Shown here one piece after another: positions 300 to 18,779 of a stretch of DNA of 64,000 nt. The stretch is taken from contig DASUJH010000020.1 in the NCBI GenBank assembly GCA_036279355.1, forward strand, positions 199,902-263,901, given 5' to 3'. Under the pieces are notes generated by a model. That model searched no databases and had not been told where the DNA came from. It saw only the letters and a list, made by a program, of their open reading frames with translations. The position numbers were made by a program, and so were the translations under genes. The stretch comes from Gemmatimonadales bacterium. GTDB taxonomy: Bacteria; Gemmatimonadota; Gemmatimonadetes; Gemmatimonadales; GWC2-71-9. Positions within the stretch are counted from its first letter, which is position 1. Every line of letters starts with the position of its first letter.

Positions 300-1442
300 G
301 TGAGCGACGCGAGTCGCGCGGGCGCGCTGCGCGCCGTCGTCGTGGGGCGCGCATACGCCGATCCCGCGGCGCGTGGCAAGCTTCGCGCCCTAACGGGCCT
401 CGGCTGCGCCGTCGGCGCCGTCGTGCCCGCTGAATGGCGCTCCCCTTCCGACGGACGGCTGCACAAGCCCGAGACCGGCGATGACGGGGGTACCCGCATC
501 CTGGCCATCCCGGCGCGCCGCGGGGCGGAATCGCGCTGGGACGGCACTGCTCTTCGGCGCGCGCTCGCGGAGTTTCGACCCGACGTGGTGCAGCTCGAGG
601 AAGAACCGGGAACGCGCGCGGCGGCGCAGGTCAGGCGCGCCGCGGCACGGCTGGGTATTGCGCTGGTGGCGTGCAGCTCGGAAGGCCGGCACCGCATTGC
701 GCGCCCTCTCCAGTCCCGCATGCGCCGCCGCCGTGTGCTGCGGGAGGCGCGAGGCCTCGTGGGGAGTAACCGCCTCGCCCTCGAATCGCTCGCGGATGGC
801 CGCGCGTCCGTTCCGCACTCGGTCATTCCGCCGCTGGGCATCACCCCGCCGCTCACGCCGGTCGCGCCGCCGTCGGAAGGGTCGGACGACCGACTGGTGA
901 TCGGCTTCGTCGGCCGCCTGCGCCCTGAGAAAGGGGTCGACCTCCTCCTTCGGGCGGCGGCATGGCTGCGCAGCACCTGGTCGATGGAAATCGTCGGCAC
1001 CGGGCCGGCCCTGGAGGAGCTTGAGACGCTCGTGACGAGGCTCGGCATCGCGGGGCGCGTCACCTGGCACGGCGCGCTGCCGGCGTCGGCGCTCGCCGAG
1101 TGCTGGCGCGGCTTCGATTGCCTCGTGCTTCCGTCCCGCACCACCGAACACTGGATCGAGGACCGGGGCCGCACGGTGCTCGAGGCAATGGCCCACGGCC
1201 TCCCGGTGGTGACATCCGATTCCGGCGTGCTTCCCGAGCTCGTGGGCGAGGCGGGCATCGTGGTGCCGGAAGGTGATGTCGATGCGCTCGCCGTCGCGCT
1301 CCACCGGCTCCTGGCGCAATCCGCGCTTCGCGCCCGCTTGGGTGCGGACGCGCGGCGCCGCGTGCTGGCGGATTTCAGCGATGCCGCGGTCGCCCGGCGA
1401 ACGCTCGAGTTCTGGCACGCGGTGCTCGCGCCGCGTGCTTGA
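300..1442 (+). CDS. Glycosyltransferase family 4 (GT-B)
   Basis: A protein of about 380 residues with the two-domain GT-B layout. The C-terminal half has the family 4 signatures: 'VIGFVGRLRPEKGVDLLLRAA' as the start of the donor domain, 'WHGALPASALAECWRGFDCLVLPS', then the nucleotide-sugar loop with RTVLEAMAHGLPVVTSDSG and PELVGEAGIVVPEGD. It would add a sugar to a lipid-linked repeat unit in the cytoplasm. The start is uncertain. I chose GTG at 300 because the Rossmann strand (LRAVVVGRAY) follows soon after; an in-frame ATG at 228 would add 24 residues of unusual composition. The linkage formed cannot be told from sequence. Confidence 0.85.
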   Translation: MSDASRAGALRAVVVGRAYADPAARGKLRALTGLGCAVGAVVPAEWRSPSDGRLHKPETGDDGGTRILAIPARRGAESRWDGTALRRALAEFRPDVVQLEEEPGTRAAAQVRRAAARLGIALVACSSEGRHRIARPLQSRMRRRRVLREARGLVGSNRLALESLADGRASVPHSVIPPLGITPPLTPVAPPSEGSDDRLVIGFVGRLRPEKGVDLLLRAAAWLRSTWSMEIVGTGPALEELETLVTRLGIAGRVTWHGALPASALAECWRGFDCLVLPSRTTEHWIEDRGRTVLEAMAHGLPVVTSDSGVLPELVGEAGIVVPEGDVDALAVALHRLLAQSALRARLGADARRRVLADFSDAAVARRTLEFWHAVLAPRA

Positions 1443-1467
1443 CGCCGATTCTTCCACGGGTGATTAT
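1439..1467 (+). promoter_or_regulatory. Candidate promoter of the SLBB exporter gene
   Basis: TTGACG (1439-1444) and GATTAT (1462-1467) are separated by 17 bases. The -35 box matches the sigma-70 consensus at 5 of 6 positions and the -10 at 4 of 6. It overlaps the stop codon of the upstream glycosyltransferase. Transcription would begin only a few bases before the ATG at 1477, so the mRNA would be nearly leaderless. Inferred from sequence only. Confidence 0.4.
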
Positions 1468-1476
1468 CTGCACCTC

Positions 1477-4107
1477 ATGCCGATAAACCTGACCCGCCGC
1501 CCGCGGCTCGCCCTCGGGTGCGCGCTCGTGTTCGCCGCCCTTCTCACGCGACCGGTGTCGGCGCAGGTTCCCGGACAGATCCCCGGCTTTCCACCCGGCG
1601 TCCGCCCCACGCCCGAGCAGGTGCGCGACATCCTGCAATCGCGGCCCGAGCTGGTCCAGCAGCTCCGTGAACGCTTGCAGGCCTCCGGGCTCACACCTGA
1701 CCAGGTACATGCGAGGCTCCGCGCCGAAGGATATCCGGAGGATCTGCTCGACCCCTACCTCCCCGGCGCCGACACGACCCGATCATTTACCCCGGCGCCC
1801 AACACGCTCGACGCCGTGCGGTCGCTCGGCGTGGTTTCCACCGCCGGTATCGATTCGCTGCTCAGACTCGATTCGACCCGCGTTGTTTCCGACTCGGCGC
1901 GGCGCGTCGTCGATTCGATTCTCGCGGCACGAGTCGATTCGCTCCGGCTCGACTCCCTCTCGGACACGCTGGCCGCGAGGCGCGGCCTCAAGCTGTTCGG
2001 CTACGAGGTGTTCCGCCATTACACCACGGCGTTCGAGCCGGTCCAGGTGGGTCCGGTGGACGAGAACTACCGGCTCGGCCCGGGAGACGTGCTGGTTCTC
2101 ATCGTGACGGGCGATGTCGAGCGCAGCGAAACGCTGGAGGTGACCCGCGAGGGTTTCGTGGTGATCTCGCAGGTGGGCCAGGTCTACGTCGCCAATCTCA
2201 CCCTCAAGCAGCTCGAGGACGTGCTCTACACCCGGCTGGGCCGCGTGTACTCGGGCGTGCGGCGCGGACCCAATGCACGCACGAAGTTCTACGTGACCGT
2301 GAGTCGCCTCCGCAACATCGAGGTCTACGTCACCGGCGACGTGTTGCGAGCGGGCGCGTACCAGATCTCGGCGTCCGGCACCGTGCTCACGGCATTGTAT
2401 CAGGCTGGAGGGCCGACCCAGGCCGGCAGCTTCCGCCGGATCGATGTGCGGCGCGGCCCAACGCTCGTCGACTCGGTCGACATCTATGATTACCTCCTCC
2501 GCGGCATCAACCACTCGGACGTGCGTCTCCAATCGGGCGATGTGATCTTCGTGCCGCCCCGCGGCGGCTTGGTGAAAGTGACCGGGCGGGTGCTGCGCCC
2601 CGCGATCTACGAGATCACGCCGAACGAAACGCTGCGCGACGCAATCGCGGCGGCCGGCGGGTACGAGCCGAATGCAATCCAGGGCAGGGTTCAGATCCAC
2701 CGCGTCCTCCCACCCGCGGCCCGGGGGCCGGGCGGGCGCGACCGGGTCGTGATCGACGTGACCGACCAGCAAGTGGCGAGCGGGGTGGCGCCGGCCTTTC
2801 CGCTCGTGCCGGGCGATTCGATTACGGTGTTCGCTGCGGCGGCGCCCCTTCGCGACTTCGTGAGCGTCCGCGGTGATGTCTACGTCCAGGGGCGAGTCGG
2901 ATATACCGAGGGCATGAAGCTGAGCGAGGCCATCCGGCTCGCCGGCGGCCCGAAGCCGGATGTTTACCTGGACCGAATCCTCATCTCTCGGATCCGGAGC
3001 GATTCGAGCAAAGTGCAGCTCCGCTCCGGCTTCACTGACTCGACCGGCACGATCGCCGATGACATCGTGCTGGAGCGGGAGGACGACATCCAGGTGTTCT
3101 CGCGGGCCGCATTCCGCACGGAGCCGTACGTGAGCGTCGTCGGCGCGGTGCGCCGCTCGGGCCGCGTGCCGTACCGCGAAGGAATGACGCTCAGAGATCT
3201 CGTGCTCATTGCCGGCGGGCTCACGGAGGACGCCTCGCTCGATCACGCTGAGATTGCGCGGCTCCCCACCGCCCGTCCCACCGGTGCGCTGGCGCAGACG
3301 GTCCGGGTGCCGCTCGACTCGAGCTATCTCTTCGGACGAGGCGGCGGGGCACCGGGCGCTCCCGCCGCCGGCCGTGACCCCGCAGCGCCCCCTCTCGAAC
3401 CGTACGACAACGTGCTCATCCCGCGGCAGCCGGGGTGGGCCTTGCAACGGCTCGTTTATGTCACGGGCGAGGTCAAGTACCCCGGCCGTTACGCGCTCAC
3501 CAGCAAGACCGAACGGCTTGCCGACGTAATCGCACGCGCGGGCGGGCTCACCGACGAGGCGTACGCGGGCGGCGTCGCGTTCTTCCGTCGGGCCGACCCT
3601 TCGTTTCCCGCACCGCCGCGCGCGCCGGTCGAAGCCTCGGAGCGGGTGCAGCCGCTGCCCCCGGGATTCAAGGAGCGGGTGGGCATCGACCTGCCTCAGG
3701 TGCTCAAGAACGCGGATGATCGGGACAATCTGATCTTGGCGGCGGGCGACTCGATCGACGTCCCCGAATACGACCCGATCGTGACGGTTGCGGGCGCAGT
3801 CAATGCACCTGGACCGGTGGCGTACGCGCCGGGGAAAAACCTCGACTGGTACGTCGATGCGGCCGGCGGCTATGCGCCGACCGGAGACCGGGACCGGGTA
3901 TACGTCACCCAGCCCGATGGCAAGAAGGGTACGGTGAAGCGGCGTTTTCTCCTGAGCGATACACAGCCGAAACCGGGGCCCGGCGCGTCGATCTACGTGC
4001 CGGCAAAGGCGGGCGGGTCCAAGTCCGGCAACGCGGCCGCGGTGCTTGGCGTCGTGGCCTCGCTCATCGCGAGTCTCACGACGATCGTGGTTGTATTGCG
4101 GCGCTGA
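1477..4107 (+). CDS. Polysaccharide export protein with six SLBB domains (Wza-like)
   Basis: An 876-residue envelope protein that probably forms the periplasmic/outer-membrane channel for exported polysaccharide. The start at 1477 gives a clear signal peptide (LALGCALVFAALL, cleavage near VSAQ). An Asp-Ser-rich stretch lies near residues 125-170. The polysaccharide export domain begins near 197 with 'YRLGPGDVLVLIVTGD'. Six SLBB units start near residues 279, 362, 460, 550, 658 and 768, each with a V-x-G-x-V strand and an 'AGG' turn. The C-terminus is a hydrophobic helix ending VVVLRR. E. coli Wza is about 380 residues with fewer SLBB units, so this one is much enlarged. It follows a glycosyltransferase gene and fits the Wzx/Wzy system of this locus. 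Confidence 0.9.
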   Translation: MPINLTRRPRLALGCALVFAALLTRPVSAQVPGQIPGFPPGVRPTPEQVRDILQSRPELVQQLRERLQASGLTPDQVHARLRAEGYPEDLLDPYLPGADTTRSFTPAPNTLDAVRSLGVVSTAGIDSLLRLDSTRVVSDSARRVVDSILAARVDSLRLDSLSDTLAARRGLKLFGYEVFRHYTTAFEPVQVGPVDENYRLGPGDVLVLIVTGDVERSETLEVTREGFVVISQVGQVYVANLTLKQLEDVLYTRLGRVYSGVRRGPNARTKFYVTVSRLRNIEVYVTGDVLRAGAYQISASGTVLTALYQAGGPTQAGSFRRIDVRRGPTLVDSVDIYDYLLRGINHSDVRLQSGDVIFVPPRGGLVKVTGRVLRPAIYEITPNETLRDAIAAAGGYEPNAIQGRVQIHRVLPPAARGPGGRDRVVIDVTDQQVASGVAPAFPLVPGDSITVFAAAAPLRDFVSVRGDVYVQGRVGYTEGMKLSEAIRLAGGPKPDVYLDRILISRIRSDSSKVQLRSGFTDSTGTIADDIVLEREDDIQVFSRAAFRTEPYVSVVGAVRRSGRVPYREGMTLRDLVLIAGGLTEDASLDHAEIARLPTARPTGALAQTVRVPLDSSYLFGRGGGAPGAPAAGRDPAAPPLEPYDNVLIPRQPGWALQRLVYVTGEVKYPGRYALTSKTERLADVIARAGGLTDEAYAGGVAFFRRADPSFPAPPRAPVEASERVQPLPPGFKERVGIDLPQVLKNADDRDNLILAAGDSIDVPEYDPIVTVAGAVNAPGPVAYAPGKNLDWYVDAAGGYAPTGDRDRVYVTQPDGKKGTVKRRFLLSDTQPKPGPGASIYVPAKAGGSKSGNAAAVLGVVASLIASLTTIVVVLRR

Positions 4108-4161: not shown

Positions 4162-6081
4162 TTACGCGGCGCCGACCGAGGTGCGTGCAGGTCCCTGCGC
4201 GGCGGCGGCATCCGTGAGGGCGGGGGCGTAGTCCGGCACCAAGCGAGTAACGAGCATCCGAAGGTCGTGCTCCGGCGCTCCGCCCTGTGCAGCGTCGATA
4301 AGCCGCTCGATCGTCTGAGAGGCGCCAAACGGCACAGTTCGAGTGAGCGCCCGGCGCACTCTCGGATGCGAAGTCGGCACTGTGCGCTCATGATCGAGCA
4401 GGATCTGCTCGTCCAGCCGCTCGCCGGGGCGAATGCCGGTGAAGCGGATTTCGATTGGATTGCCGGTGTCACGCCCGTGGAGGCGGATGAGCGCCGCCGC
4501 CAGATCAAGAATCCGCACCGGCTCCCCTGCATCGAGCACCAGCACCTCGCCCCCCCGCGCCGCGGCAGCCGCTTCCAGCAGCAGCGTGCTCGCGTCCCGG
4601 AGCAGGACGAAGTGGCGCCGCATCTGGGGATGGGTGACGGTCACCGGCCCGCCGCCCGCAATCTGGCTCAAGAACGTAGGCAGCACGCTGCTGCGGCTCC
4701 CCAGCACGTTGGAGAGGCGGATGGCGGCGAACCGCCGCCCGTCGTGAGTCGGCACGCCCTGCACCACCAGCTCCGCCACCCGTTTCGCGGCTCCCATCAC
4801 GCTGGTCGGACGGACGGCCTTGATGGTCGAGATAAGCACAAGATGCTGCGCGCCGTATTCATCGGCGAGGCTCACCACGTTCCGGGTGCCGAGCACGTTG
4901 CTCGTCACCGCCTCCCGGATGCTGTCCTCGAGCAACGGCAGGTGCTTGTGGCCCGCGGCATGGAAGACCGAGTGGGGACGGTGCTCTTCGAAGACCTGGC
5001 GCATGCGCTCGACGTCACGCACGTCGGCGATGACCGGCTGCACGTCGGCGCTGGGAAACGTCTGCGCGAATTCGCCCAGCAACTCCGCGATCGAGTTTTC
5101 GCCGTGCCCGAGAGCGACGATGCGCCTCGGCGCCGCGCGCGCGAGCTGGCGGCAGAGCTCGCTTCCGATCGAGCCACCGGCCCCGGTCACCATCACCGTT
5201 TCACCGCACGCGAGCGGACGGATGGCCTCGAGGTCGAGCTCGACGGGCTCCCGCCGCAGCAGGCGTCTCAGGTGCGCCTCCTCGATGGCGCTTGCCGCGG
5301 CGCCGGCCACGTGCAGGCGCGGGGCCGCGCGCCGGGCTTCGGCCGCGAGTGCGTGCTGGGGTATGGGGTTCGGCGCGAGCAGATATTCCGGCAGATCGGC
5401 GACGCCGAGTCCCCACGGGACGAAGATGAGGTGATGGTCGGGGGTTTCCGACCAGGCCAGGCGGGTACTCAGGAGGACGGTTGCCGTCTGAAACAGGATG
5501 GCGAGATCCGTCTTGAGACTGCACGCCTCGGCATATGCAACGCGAAGCCAGGATTTTTCCGGCCGCACCTGGGTTTCGTAATACCCTTCCCAGTCGTCGT
5601 GCGCGCTCCCGAGGATCTGCTCCTCGTTGTGAAAGCGGACGGAGGCCCAGTCGGTGATGCCGGGACGGACGTTGAGGGCGCGGCGCTCCCAGTCCGCGTA
5701 GCGCGCGACCTCTTCCTCGAACATCGGACGGGGGCCCACGAGGCTCATCTCGCCGCGAAGCACGTTGATGAGCTGGGGCAACTCATCGAGCTTGGTGGCG
5801 CGAAGGACGCGGCCGATGCGGGTGATGCGTTCGTCGTTGCAGGTGGTCTTGGGCCCGCCGAGCTGCTCCGCGTCAGCGACCATGGTGCGGAACTTCACCT
5901 GATGAAAGCGGCGCCCCTTGTAACCGGAGCGGGCGCCGCGGTAGAGGACGGCGCCCGGTGAATCGAGCAGGACGAGGATCGAAATGATCGCCATGGCCGG
6001 CGCAAAGAGGACCAGGCCGATGGCGCTGAAGACGATGTCGAGGATTCGCTTACCGCGCTTGTTGTATACGGGGTGGCGCAC
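4162..6081 (-). CDS. Fusion: phosphoglycosyl transferase + CapD/PglF-type NDP-sugar dehydratase
   Basis: A 639-residue two-domain protein. Residues 1-215 are a monotopic phosphoglycosyl transferase (bacterial sugar transferase family): a membrane-anchoring hydrophobic helix (12-40), 'KFRTMVADAE', and the catalytic D99-E100 dyad in 'KLDELPQLINVLRGEMSLVGPRP'. This domain starts a repeat unit by putting a sugar-1-phosphate on undecaprenyl phosphate. Residues from about 290 are an extended SDR of the CapD/PglF group with the NAD loop TGAGGSIGSE. The group's usual active-site S-T-D-K-A reads S-T-I-K-A here (Ile420 for Asp), while the Lys and the later 'VMGAAKR' (Met in place of SDR Tyr) are kept. 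Activity of this half is therefore uncertain. It lies alone behind a long structured leader, convergent with the exporter gene. Confidence 0.88.
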   Translation of the reverse strand: MRHPVYNKRGKRILDIVFSAIGLVLFAPAMAIISILVLLDSPGAVLYRGARSGYKGRRFHQVKFRTMVADAEQLGGPKTTCNDERITRIGRVLRATKLDELPQLINVLRGEMSLVGPRPMFEEEVARYADWERRALNVRPGITDWASVRFHNEEQILGSAHDDWEGYYETQVRPEKSWLRVAYAEACSLKTDLAILFQTATVLLSTRLAWSETPDHHLIFVPWGLGVADLPEYLLAPNPIPQHALAAEARRAAPRLHVAGAAASAIEEAHLRRLLRREPVELDLEAIRPLACGETVMVTGAGGSIGSELCRQLARAAPRRIVALGHGENSIAELLGEFAQTFPSADVQPVIADVRDVERMRQVFEEHRPHSVFHAAGHKHLPLLEDSIREAVTSNVLGTRNVVSLADEYGAQHLVLISTIKAVRPTSVMGAAKRVAELVVQGVPTHDGRRFAAIRLSNVLGSRSSVLPTFLSQIAGGGPVTVTHPQMRRHFVLLRDASTLLLEAAAAARGGEVLVLDAGEPVRILDLAAALIRLHGRDTGNPIEIRFTGIRPGERLDEQILLDHERTVPTSHPRVRRALTRTVPFGASQTIERLIDAAQGGAPEHDLRMLVTRLVPDYAPALTDAAAAQGPARTSVGAA

Positions 6082-6260
6082 CCTGATCCTCTACCGCTGA
6101 AGTGTGGTCCGTCGAACATCAGCACACTCGATCGGTGCCGCGAACGATCAAACCCGCCCTGAACCGTCGCTCCCCCCACCCGTCGCTGCCACTTCAGCTG
6201 ATCGCCTGACCGCGCTCAGTGCACGTCCGCGCCGCCGGCCGGACAGTCTCGGTGCCACAA

Positions 6261-6354
6261 GTTCGCCGGGGCCAGCCGACCCGCTGTCCCCCATGCAGGC
6301 CGGCCGGCGCGTCCCCATACGCCTCGGATGGGGCCGCGCCGAGCCCCGGCGAAC
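6261..6354 (-). repeat. Nested inverted repeats in the 5' leader (possible cis-regulatory RNA)
   Basis: An outer perfect 12-base inverted repeat pairs GTTCGCCGGGGC (6261-6272) with GCCCCGGCGAAC (6343-6354). Inside it, at 6306-6340, lies a second hairpin: GGCGCG, one mismatch, CCCCAT, a 9-base loop, ATGGGG, mismatch, CGCGCC. The rest of the interior (6273-6305) is unpaired or weakly paired. In reverse-strand RNA this gives a long closing stem with an off-centre hairpin. No run of U follows, so a simple terminator is unlikely. It does not match a riboswitch class I can recognise. Confidence 0.5.
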
Positions 6355-6358
6355 GGGC

Positions 6359-6399
6359 GTAAGTCCCTCTAGTGTCGCAAACTCCGACTTACCCGTCAA
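6359..6399 (-). promoter_or_regulatory. Candidate promoter with flanking dyad for the fusion gene
   Basis: On the reverse strand TTGACG (6399-6394) and GACACT (6376-6371) are separated by exactly 17 bases. The -35 box matches 5 of 6 positions, the -10 only 3 of 6. A perfect 7-base inverted repeat, GTAAGTC (6359-6365) with GACTTAC (6386-6392), brackets the -10 box, a layout suited to a dimeric regulator. The dyad could instead fold in RNA. Confidence 0.4.
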
Positions 6400-6550
6400 C
6401 TGACTGCAAACCTAAGCGGGCCCGGGACAAGCAGGAAGTATGCTCGCCCGCCCCACCGCTGCGGCCGCTGGCCTAAGCCTCGACACGGGCGAACCTCGAC
6501 TGCAAATCCGCGTCCCGCCCCGGCAAGAAGCGTGTCAGCGTGAGACGAGG

Positions 6551-7627
6551 CTAGCGGGCGCCGGCAAGGAATAACCGGCGCATATCGGCCTCGACGGACT
6601 CCAGCGTGCCCGACATGAGATAGGTGTTGAAACGTGACGTGCCCGCGGGGAGCCCGAGGCCGTGCAAGGCATTGATCTTGGAGACCGAGCGCGAGGTCGC
6701 GTCATATGTGGTTTCGGCCGGCGTCGCGCTCCGCATGTACTGGAATCCCCCGCGGGTCACGGAGCCCCCGTGGTCTGCGCTCACGCCGTAGAGCCCGAAC
6801 GCTTCACCGCCATCAGGCGTGGCCACGATGAGGCCGCCGAACCCTGAGGGCGGCCGGGTCCCGCCAGTGCGCACCTTGACGTCGAGCAGCGGCGCCAGCG
6901 CCTGGTCTCCGGCGTCGTAGCGGTAGAACCGCGAGAGCCGCGCGTTGACGTACACCGCGGGGATCTCGAGGCTCGCCCGGGGCAGCGCCGCCGCCAGGGT
7001 GACCACGGTAGTGTACCGGGCGACCGGTCCCATCCCTGCGTAATCGAGCGTGATTTCTTTTCCCAGCTGGGTTCCCCGCCAGACGATCGCGTGCGTCGTG
7101 TCGCCGCCGAAGAATTCGGGCTGCCACTCGAGCGGCGCAGCACGGGTGGACTGGGTCGTGGCGGACGAGTTAACCATGGAGAGACACGGCGACCCCTGGC
7201 GCGTCGCCGGATCGGGAAGCCAGAGCGGCTCCGAGTGCACGCTCCCCGCCTCGGTCGGATTGCCCCTCGTGAGATCGTGCGCATCCACCACGAACGCCGC
7301 CTGGATCTCGCGGCCGTAGTCGCGCACGTTCACAAACTCGGCGCCCTTCCATTTCCACGACCAGAGCGCGCAGCCGGCGACGGGGTTGGACGTGATCGTG
7401 ACGCCGCCGGCGGAGAGAGCGAGCATCGCGGTATCCCTCGCACCCGGCCCCGCCGGAAGTAATGCCGGCTCGCCGCCGGCGCCCGCCGACGTGAGCCACG
7501 ACCGCCGTGCGCTCGACCAGCCCAGGTCCGACCGCATCCCGCCGGGCACACCGGTACCGGGCACGCCGGCGCCCGTCGAGCAGGCGAGCGCAAGCAACGC
7601 GGCGACCAGCGTACGGCGGCGCGTCAC
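6551..7627 (-). CDS. Secreted protein or lipoprotein of unknown function in the polysaccharide operon
   Basis: A 358-residue protein with an N-terminal export signal (RRRTLVAALLALAC); the Cys could be a lipid anchor, but the box is not canonical. I do not recognise a family. The rest looks beta-rich, with aromatic and glycine-rich segments such as 'ALWSWKWKGAEFVNVRDYG' and 'LSRFYRYDAGDQ'. Its start lies 7 bases after the stop of the wzz-like gene, so it should be co-transcribed as the last gene of the glycosyltransferase operon. A role in polysaccharide modification or surface retention is possible but is only inferred from position. Confidence 0.75.
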   Translation of the reverse strand: MTRRRTLVAALLALACSTGAGVPGTGVPGGMRSDLGWSSARRSWLTSAGAGGEPALLPAGPGARDTAMLALSAGGVTITSNPVAGCALWSWKWKGAEFVNVRDYGREIQAAFVVDAHDLTRGNPTEAGSVHSEPLWLPDPATRQGSPCLSMVNSSATTQSTRAAPLEWQPEFFGGDTTHAIVWRGTQLGKEITLDYAGMGPVARYTTVVTLAAALPRASLEIPAVYVNARLSRFYRYDAGDQALAPLLDVKVRTGGTRPPSGFGGLIVATPDGGEAFGLYGVSADHGGSVTRGGFQYMRSATPAETTYDATSRSVSKINALHGLGLPAGTSRFNTYLMSGTLESVEADMRRLFLAGAR

Positions 7628-17585: not shown

Positions 17586-17645
17586 ATCGCCGGGCCGCTG
17601 CTCCATCTGCCCGGCGTGGTTGTTTGCACCCTTGTGGAGGCCCTC

Positions 17646-18779
17646 ATGGCGACTGTCGCTGCTCCCAGCTCCCCGCACAGCACCTACCCGGCTCACGAGG
17701 TCGCCAAGCTCTTTGCGCCGCCCGAGGCCGAGGTCCCGGCCTTGAAGCTCCGCCGCCTCCTCAAGGAGGCTCAGACCCGGAAGAGCTATATCCACACCGC
17801 TGGCGCGTACGACGCGTTCACCGCGGCCATCATGACCCGTCTCGGATTCAAGGCGCTCTATGGGAGCGGGTGGCAGCTCGCCGCGACCAAGAGCCTGTAC
17901 CCCGACATCGGCATCTACTCGTCTCACCAGATGGTCGAGCTGGTGCTCGAGATGAAGAAGGGCATCGAGGGCGCGCGGAATACCTGCTGGTACGATTCGG
18001 AGGGCAAGGAGCTGATCGACGCGCCACCCGCGTTCGTCGACATGGAGGCCGGCTTCGGCGGCCCCACCCAGACGTTCACCCTCGCCACCGAGCTCATCCG
18101 GGTGGGCACCGCAGGCGTCCACCTCGAGAACCAGGACCCGACCAACCGCACCTGCGGCCACATCGTGAACGTCGGCAAGGCCAAGCGCGACAAGGTGCTG
18201 GTGCCCAGGAAGGACTGGCTCGCCAAGCTCAAGGCGATCAAGGCGGCGGCCGAGGTCACTGGCGTCGACGTCGTCATTATCGCGCGCACCGACTCGATCG
18301 ATGGCGCGCTTCCCGGCCAATCGTCGGGTGGCGTCAAAATGGCGGTCGAAGACGCGTGGGAGGCGGCCGAGCTCGGCGTTGACGTGATCTGGCCGGAGTT
18401 CAACAACGCCGACATCGACCAACCCGCCGAATTTTCCGAAGGGGTGCGCAAGCACTACCCCAAACAGATGCTGGGCTTCAATCTGTCGCCGTCGCTCTAC
18501 TTCGGCCGCGCGAAAAAGGCCGGCAAGCTCATCACCAATCAGCAGCTCGCTGATCTGGGGTTCATCCTGCAGTTCTCGACGCTCTTCAACTTCCGTACGG
18601 CGGGCATGGCGCTCGAGAAGGGCCTGCGCAAGTTTCTCCACTCCGGGATAGACGCCCTCGCCGACCTCCAGATCGAGGAAGACGAGATGTCGCCGCCGCC
18701 CATCACCAAGATGCACCAGAAGTTTGCCGGGATGAATCGCTGGCTCATCCTGGAACAGGTGCTGAGCGGGAAAGAGTAG
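17646..18779 (+). CDS. Isocitrate lyase/PEP mutase family protein (isocitrate-lyase-like)
   Basis: A 377-residue TIM-barrel protein. 'AYDAFTAAIMTRLGFKALYGSGWQLAA' opens the family's barrel. 'AFVDMEAGFGGPTQTF' carries the metal-binding acidic residues. The catalytic loop reads 'NRTCGHIVN', with the Cys-Gly-His of isocitrate lyases. 'DVVIIARTDSIDGALPG' and 'DVIWPEFNNADI' follow. The usual N-C-S-P-S-F-N-W segment of isocitrate lyase reads N-L-S-P-S-L-Y-F here, so substrate choice may differ (2-methylisocitrate or another acid). The start at 17646 has GGAGG five bases upstream. It probably feeds the glyoxylate shunt; no malate synthase gene is in the window. Confidence 0.8.
   Translation: MATVAAPSSPHSTYPAHEVAKLFAPPEAEVPALKLRRLLKEAQTRKSYIHTAGAYDAFTAAIMTRLGFKALYGSGWQLAATKSLYPDIGIYSSHQMVELVLEMKKGIEGARNTCWYDSEGKELIDAPPAFVDMEAGFGGPTQTFTLATELIRVGTAGVHLENQDPTNRTCGHIVNVGKAKRDKVLVPRKDWLAKLKAIKAAAEVTGVDVVIIARTDSIDGALPGQSSGGVKMAVEDAWEAAELGVDVIWPEFNNADIDQPAEFSEGVRKHYPKQMLGFNLSPSLYFGRAKKAGKLITNQQLADLGFILQFSTLFNFRTAGMALEKGLRKFLHSGIDALADLQIEEDEMSPPPITKMHQKFAGMNRWLILEQVLSGKE

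Follow-up and report, generated by a model that had tools for sequence, protein, structure and literature searches.

A single gene in the window (the whole 64,000-nucleotide stretch of DNA analysed) encodes a small monotopic phosphoglycosyl transferase that is followed, in the same chain, by the SDR half of a PglF/CapD dehydratase. It is probable that the protein combines an active transferase with a folded, disabled dehydratase that is kept as a non-catalytic domain, possibly one that senses a ligand or dimerises. On this reading, the membrane helices of CapD and most or all of its N-terminal domain would have been lost on fusion. The transferase half would take sugar-1-phosphate from a UDP-sugar and load it on polyprenyl phosphate, in the service of the Wzx/Wzy-type polysaccharide locus around the gene. 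The SDR half would still fold and probably bind NAD(H), perhaps also a UDP-sugar; it would no longer carry out 4,6-dehydration, and would persist most likely by regulating, dimerising or positioning the transferase.

The gene is one open frame of 639 codons on the reverse strand, with a GTG start at 6081, the stop at 4162 and no internal stop codon. The Pfam search placed PF02397 (bacterial sugar transferase) on residues 11-204, with 186 bits, and PF02719 (Polysacc_synt_2) on residues 296-577, with 312 bits. This bears out the original prediction that one frame joins a sugar transferase to a CapD/PglF SDR, and the uninterrupted frame rules out two genes or a frameshift. By sequence, the solved structure nearest to the SDR half is PglF, and those nearest to the transferase half are PglC-type transferases and WbaP. 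A second pathway domain is present in the same chain as the transferase, the feature by which bifunctional monotopic phosphoglycosyl transferases are recognised. The residues that had been singled out beforehand (D99-E100, the NAD loop T299-G306, T419, I420, K421 and M429) were all correctly identified. The features are as follows:

4162-6081, reverse strand: whole fusion gene, 639 amino acids, GTG start (one open frame)
5461-6081, reverse strand: small monotopic phosphoglycosyl transferase domain, residues 1-207 (PF02397, AlphaFold, conserved columns)
5962-6060, reverse strand: N-terminal hydrophobic helix-break-helix, residues 8-40 (model)
5782-5787, reverse strand: catalytic Asp99-Glu100 of the transferase (invariant in 31 aligned sequences)
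5293-5460, reverse strand: linker, residues 208-263, without clear homology
4222-5292, reverse strand: PglF/CapD-type SDR domain, residues 264-620 (PF02719 and Foldseek)
5164-5187, reverse strand: NAD-binding loop T-G-A-G-G-S-I-G, residues 299-306 (conserved columns)
4822-4824, reverse strand: Ile420 (ATC) replacing the catalytic Asp (homolog alignment and motif search)
4795-4797, reverse strand: Met429 at the classical SDR Tyr position, as in PglF/WbpM (alignment; PMC8987622)
4594-4614, reverse strand: strongly altered segment, residues 490-496, HFVLLRD versus YFMTIPE (conserved columns)
4162-4221, reverse strand: C-terminal tail, residues 621-639, and stop, largely outside the homologous region
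1273-4107, forward strand: SLBB/Poly_export polysaccharide export gene, convergent with the fusion gene

The transferase half departs from its family at none of 33 conserved columns, and its PF02397 domain carries the Asp-Glu dyad together with the conserved Arg/Lys/Pro motifs of small monotopic phosphoglycosyl transferases. Modelled alone, the domain reached an AlphaFold pLDDT of 93.9. Helices 8-25 and 27-40 of the model form a broken hydrophobic helix across residues 8-40, which may be the re-entrant membrane helix expected of a monotopic transferase. This half would be an active enzyme. Three places in the genome carry transferase domains; the third gene (G000 contig C2, 121825-122421, outside the window) shows two adjacent matched stretches in a 315-aa frame.

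The SDR half was modelled as a PglF fold, with pLDDT mostly above 90 over about residues 281-600, and in Foldseek every one of its best matches is a PglF structure (e.g. 5BJU, with a TM of 0.86 by target length). The SDR fold and the NAD-binding loop of the PglF/CapD family are both present. Binding of NAD(H) is likely, since the loop is intact. T419, K421, K433, R489 and the G-x-R-P-G-E segment are also kept; R489 and this segment presumably have a role in UDP binding, and with both retained it is possible that the SDR half binds a UDP-sugar.

At position 420 the protein has Ile, and Asp was found in 42 of the 42 CapD homologs first recovered. The active-site motif indeed reads STIKA instead of STDKA, with the codon ATC at 4824-4822, as had been reported. 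A degenerate motif pattern allowing any NTN codon (Phe, Leu, Ile, Met, Val) at this position gave no match in the genomes of 84,980 species, a collection that may omit the window's own genome; the pattern requires Pro-Thr and Met-Gly at a fixed distance, and variants outside such a context escape it. As a control, the same pattern matched the window; among 395 genomes of the phylum, it matched this genome only. The Asp version of the pattern, also run as a control, found 30 loci in the collection and matches in 26 of 150 phylum genomes, with the codon GAC in every match listed. The change from Asp to Ile is real and isolated within the motif context searched. The change from GAC to ATC takes two adjacent base changes and is accompanied by 18 further departures from conserved residues (see below), which excludes a one-base sequencing error at codon 420. 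The genome is a 60-contig assembly, which leaves some room for two genes having been joined or for the Asp codon having been misread; these same changes speak against such an artefact, as do the in-frame fusion well within a 268-kb contig and the uniform third-position GC (0.84 in both halves, like the neighbouring genes), so that hardly any weight can be given to it.

Classical nucleotide-sugar SDRs rely on a Tyr as the base that takes the proton from the C4-OH. PglF and WbpM have Met in place of this Tyr, and it was proposed that in PglF the C4-OH proton is removed by Thr395/Asp396, and that Lys397 has a role in dehydration and reprotonation (PMC8987622). The T-D-K-xn-M-x3-K signature described for this type of enzyme (PMC8987622) is absent from the fusion, which has T-I-K together with M429 and K433. 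With Met429 and Ile420 neither base is left, and we infer that the combination should abolish 4,6-dehydration. The original prediction had allowed that a UDP-sugar might be made and loaded on lipid within one protein. An ordinary bifunctional enzyme of this kind, in which the dehydratase works with Ile420 and passes its product to the transferase, would be in line with the adjacent transferase and CapD genes of relatives and of Shigella sonnei and Deinococcus plasmids. It is nevertheless very improbable: the Asp, which belongs to the proposed C4 base of PglF, is invariant elsewhere, 18 further conserved sites are changed, and no aminotransferase was found among those of the locus frames that were scanned. 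For these reasons, the idea that an active dehydratase channels a UDP-4-keto-6-deoxy sugar to the transferase is not supported, with the Asp and the Tyr both absent and many invariant residues changed.

The departures beyond Ile420 were missed by the original prediction and are stronger evidence than Ile420 itself. They were counted, leaving each sequence out in turn, against 53 homologs at columns with at least 95% conservation. The SDR half departs at 19 of 88 such columns, and the 53 homologs do so at 1.4% on average and at 9.8% at most. At variable columns its divergence is an ordinary 52% (others 34-74%), so that the excess at conserved sites is specific; in a regression on variable-site divergence, the conserved-site departures lie about 11.5 z above expectation. 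At 15 of the changed columns, conservation extends to the active, distantly related PglF (39% identity). All 19 departures lie after residue 376, in the catalytic/substrate half, where conserved columns 492-496 are all changed. The NAD half (to residue 376) keeps 16 of its 16 conserved columns and the catalytic/substrate half loses 19 of 72, with a Fisher p of 0.018 that is optimistic because the split point was chosen after seeing the first departure. The SDR half sits inside the CapD tree on a branch of 0.87, compared with a median of 0.21. It descends from the PglF family yet, judged by its signature, is not a functional member of it; with the Asp and 18 other columns lost, the second domain does not appear catalytically competent, and a catalytically disabled dehydratase half is strongly supported. 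The alternative suggestion of the original prediction, that the SDR half is an inactive domain that may sense UDP-sugar, gains support from the same losses as far as the inactivity goes.

It is unlikely, though conceivable, that the SDR half has instead become a changed enzyme that runs another NAD-dependent reaction on a UDP-sugar (e.g. C4 oxidation or epimerisation) and feeds the transferase. The retention of the NAD half, Thr419, Lys421, Lys433 and the G-x-R-P-G-E segment would fit such an enzyme; of these, Thr419, Lys421 and the segment count against the non-catalytic reading. Several changes in the substrate half go together, and in UDP-sulfoquinovose synthase a Met at the corresponding position is compatible with activity (PMC8987622 Table 1). 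However, the catalytic Tyr is still present in that synthase and in the epimerases, where Met429 stands here, and the Asp that takes over the role of this Tyr in PglF is gone, which leaves no obvious base for the C4-OH.

Among the matches listed from the sets of relatives, the family and 395 phylum genomes, residues 1-639 were matched only by this genome; a strongly diverged fusion could lie among weaker matches beyond those listed. A scan of the whole collection with the full protein returned one locus only, a Planctomycetaceae CapD with the Asp. In relatives, CapD is encoded by open frames mostly of 640-760 aa, whose C-terminal end is the SDR; the N-terminal transmembrane region and the preceding domain of full-length CapD are absent here, and the transferase stands in their place. 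A profile of the CapD pre-SDR region gave 10.9 bits on residues 200-285, under the inclusion threshold and across a range that takes in the first part of the SDR, which does not establish the linker as a leftover of the CapD N-terminal domain. Two candidate fusions in other genomes (G040 C9 and G044 C37) were long open frames carrying PF02397 alone. The matches on Shigella sonnei and Deinococcus plasmids, which covered most of the query, were separate transferase and CapD genes side by side. In three relatives (L024, L037 and L076), a full CapD gene is immediately preceded on its strand by a transferase gene, which suggests that the fusion arose by a deletion between such neighbours that removed the membrane part of CapD.

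The finding of the fusion in a single genome, without a sister species or close homolog that shows it under selection, also weighs against a retained non-catalytic domain, and the long branch could also mean decay. The SDR half would then be a functionless, drifting passenger of a recent or neutral fusion, with many conserved sites already lost. This seems rather improbable, as the frame is intact over more than 350 codons with unchanged coding composition, 69 of the 88 conserved columns are kept, including all of those in the NAD half, and the PglF fold is predicted with confidence.

Upstream of the fusion gene lie genes of Wzz type and Wzy_C (O-antigen ligase/polymerase) type, several glycosyltransferases, a Wzx-type flippase and two methyltransferases. 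On the opposite strand are genes of dTDP-rhamnose type (nucleotidyl transferase, RmlD-like, and GDP_Man_Dehyd/RmlB-like), adjoined by a gene of the isocitrate lyase/PEP-mutase family (17616-18779, forward strand). A frame of about 357 aa without a Pfam match (6551-7627, reverse strand) lies between the Wzz gene and the fusion gene, and the 469 bp before the latter (6082-6550) hold no long frame in its direction, in an otherwise dense locus. The genome's sole strong DegT aminotransferase lies on a different contig. No other CapD-type SDR was found in the genome, with 314 bits here and at most 46 bits for nine other matches.

A more specific form of the non-catalytic reading, that the dead SDR half acts as an allosteric sensor, binding NAD(H) and a UDP-sugar and so turning the fused transferase on or off, is possible but tentative. 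If it is true, a nucleotide-sugar dehydratase would have been recruited to the enzyme through which sugar is committed to polysaccharide synthesis. The control of the first membrane step in bacterial polysaccharide synthesis is an open question, and the extra domains of large transferases are of uncertain function (PMC10942596); a seemingly dead dehydratase on a minimal transferase would offer a simple system for testing regulation by a non-catalytic nucleotide-sugar domain.

PglF (Campylobacter jejuni, 5BJU), WbpM and CapD are UDP-GlcNAc 4,6-dehydratases of the Met-x3-Lys type, which share with the fusion the SDR fold, the NAD loop, Thr-x-Lys and the Met-x3-Lys motif; in contrast to them, the fusion has Ile for Asp, 18 more changes and a transferase, and lacks the N-terminal transmembrane part. 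With PglC-type small transferases (8G1N) it shares the whole catalytic domain, the Asp-Glu dyad and all conserved columns, but adds a C-terminal SDR domain. Monotopic transferases with an added domain are an already known kind: bifunctional ones (Bi-PGT) are known from sequence networks (O'Toole 2021b, cited in PMC10942596), and sugar-modifying domains are one reported kind of domain fused to the transferase core (PMC12802240). The statement of the original prediction that such fusions are known is consistent with both sources. As in Bi-PGT, an extra domain is carried on the transferase core, although the one fused here looks catalytically disabled. In the large transferases such as WbaP, the transferase is likewise joined to an extra domain; the N-terminal domains of WbaP resemble those of PglF-like dehydratases and were suggested to take feedback signals (PMC10942596). 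The domain added in the fusion differs in that it is the SDR half itself, placed C-terminally and without a four-helix bundle. The large transferases are the closest functional analogy, one that would support a regulatory role of the SDR half.
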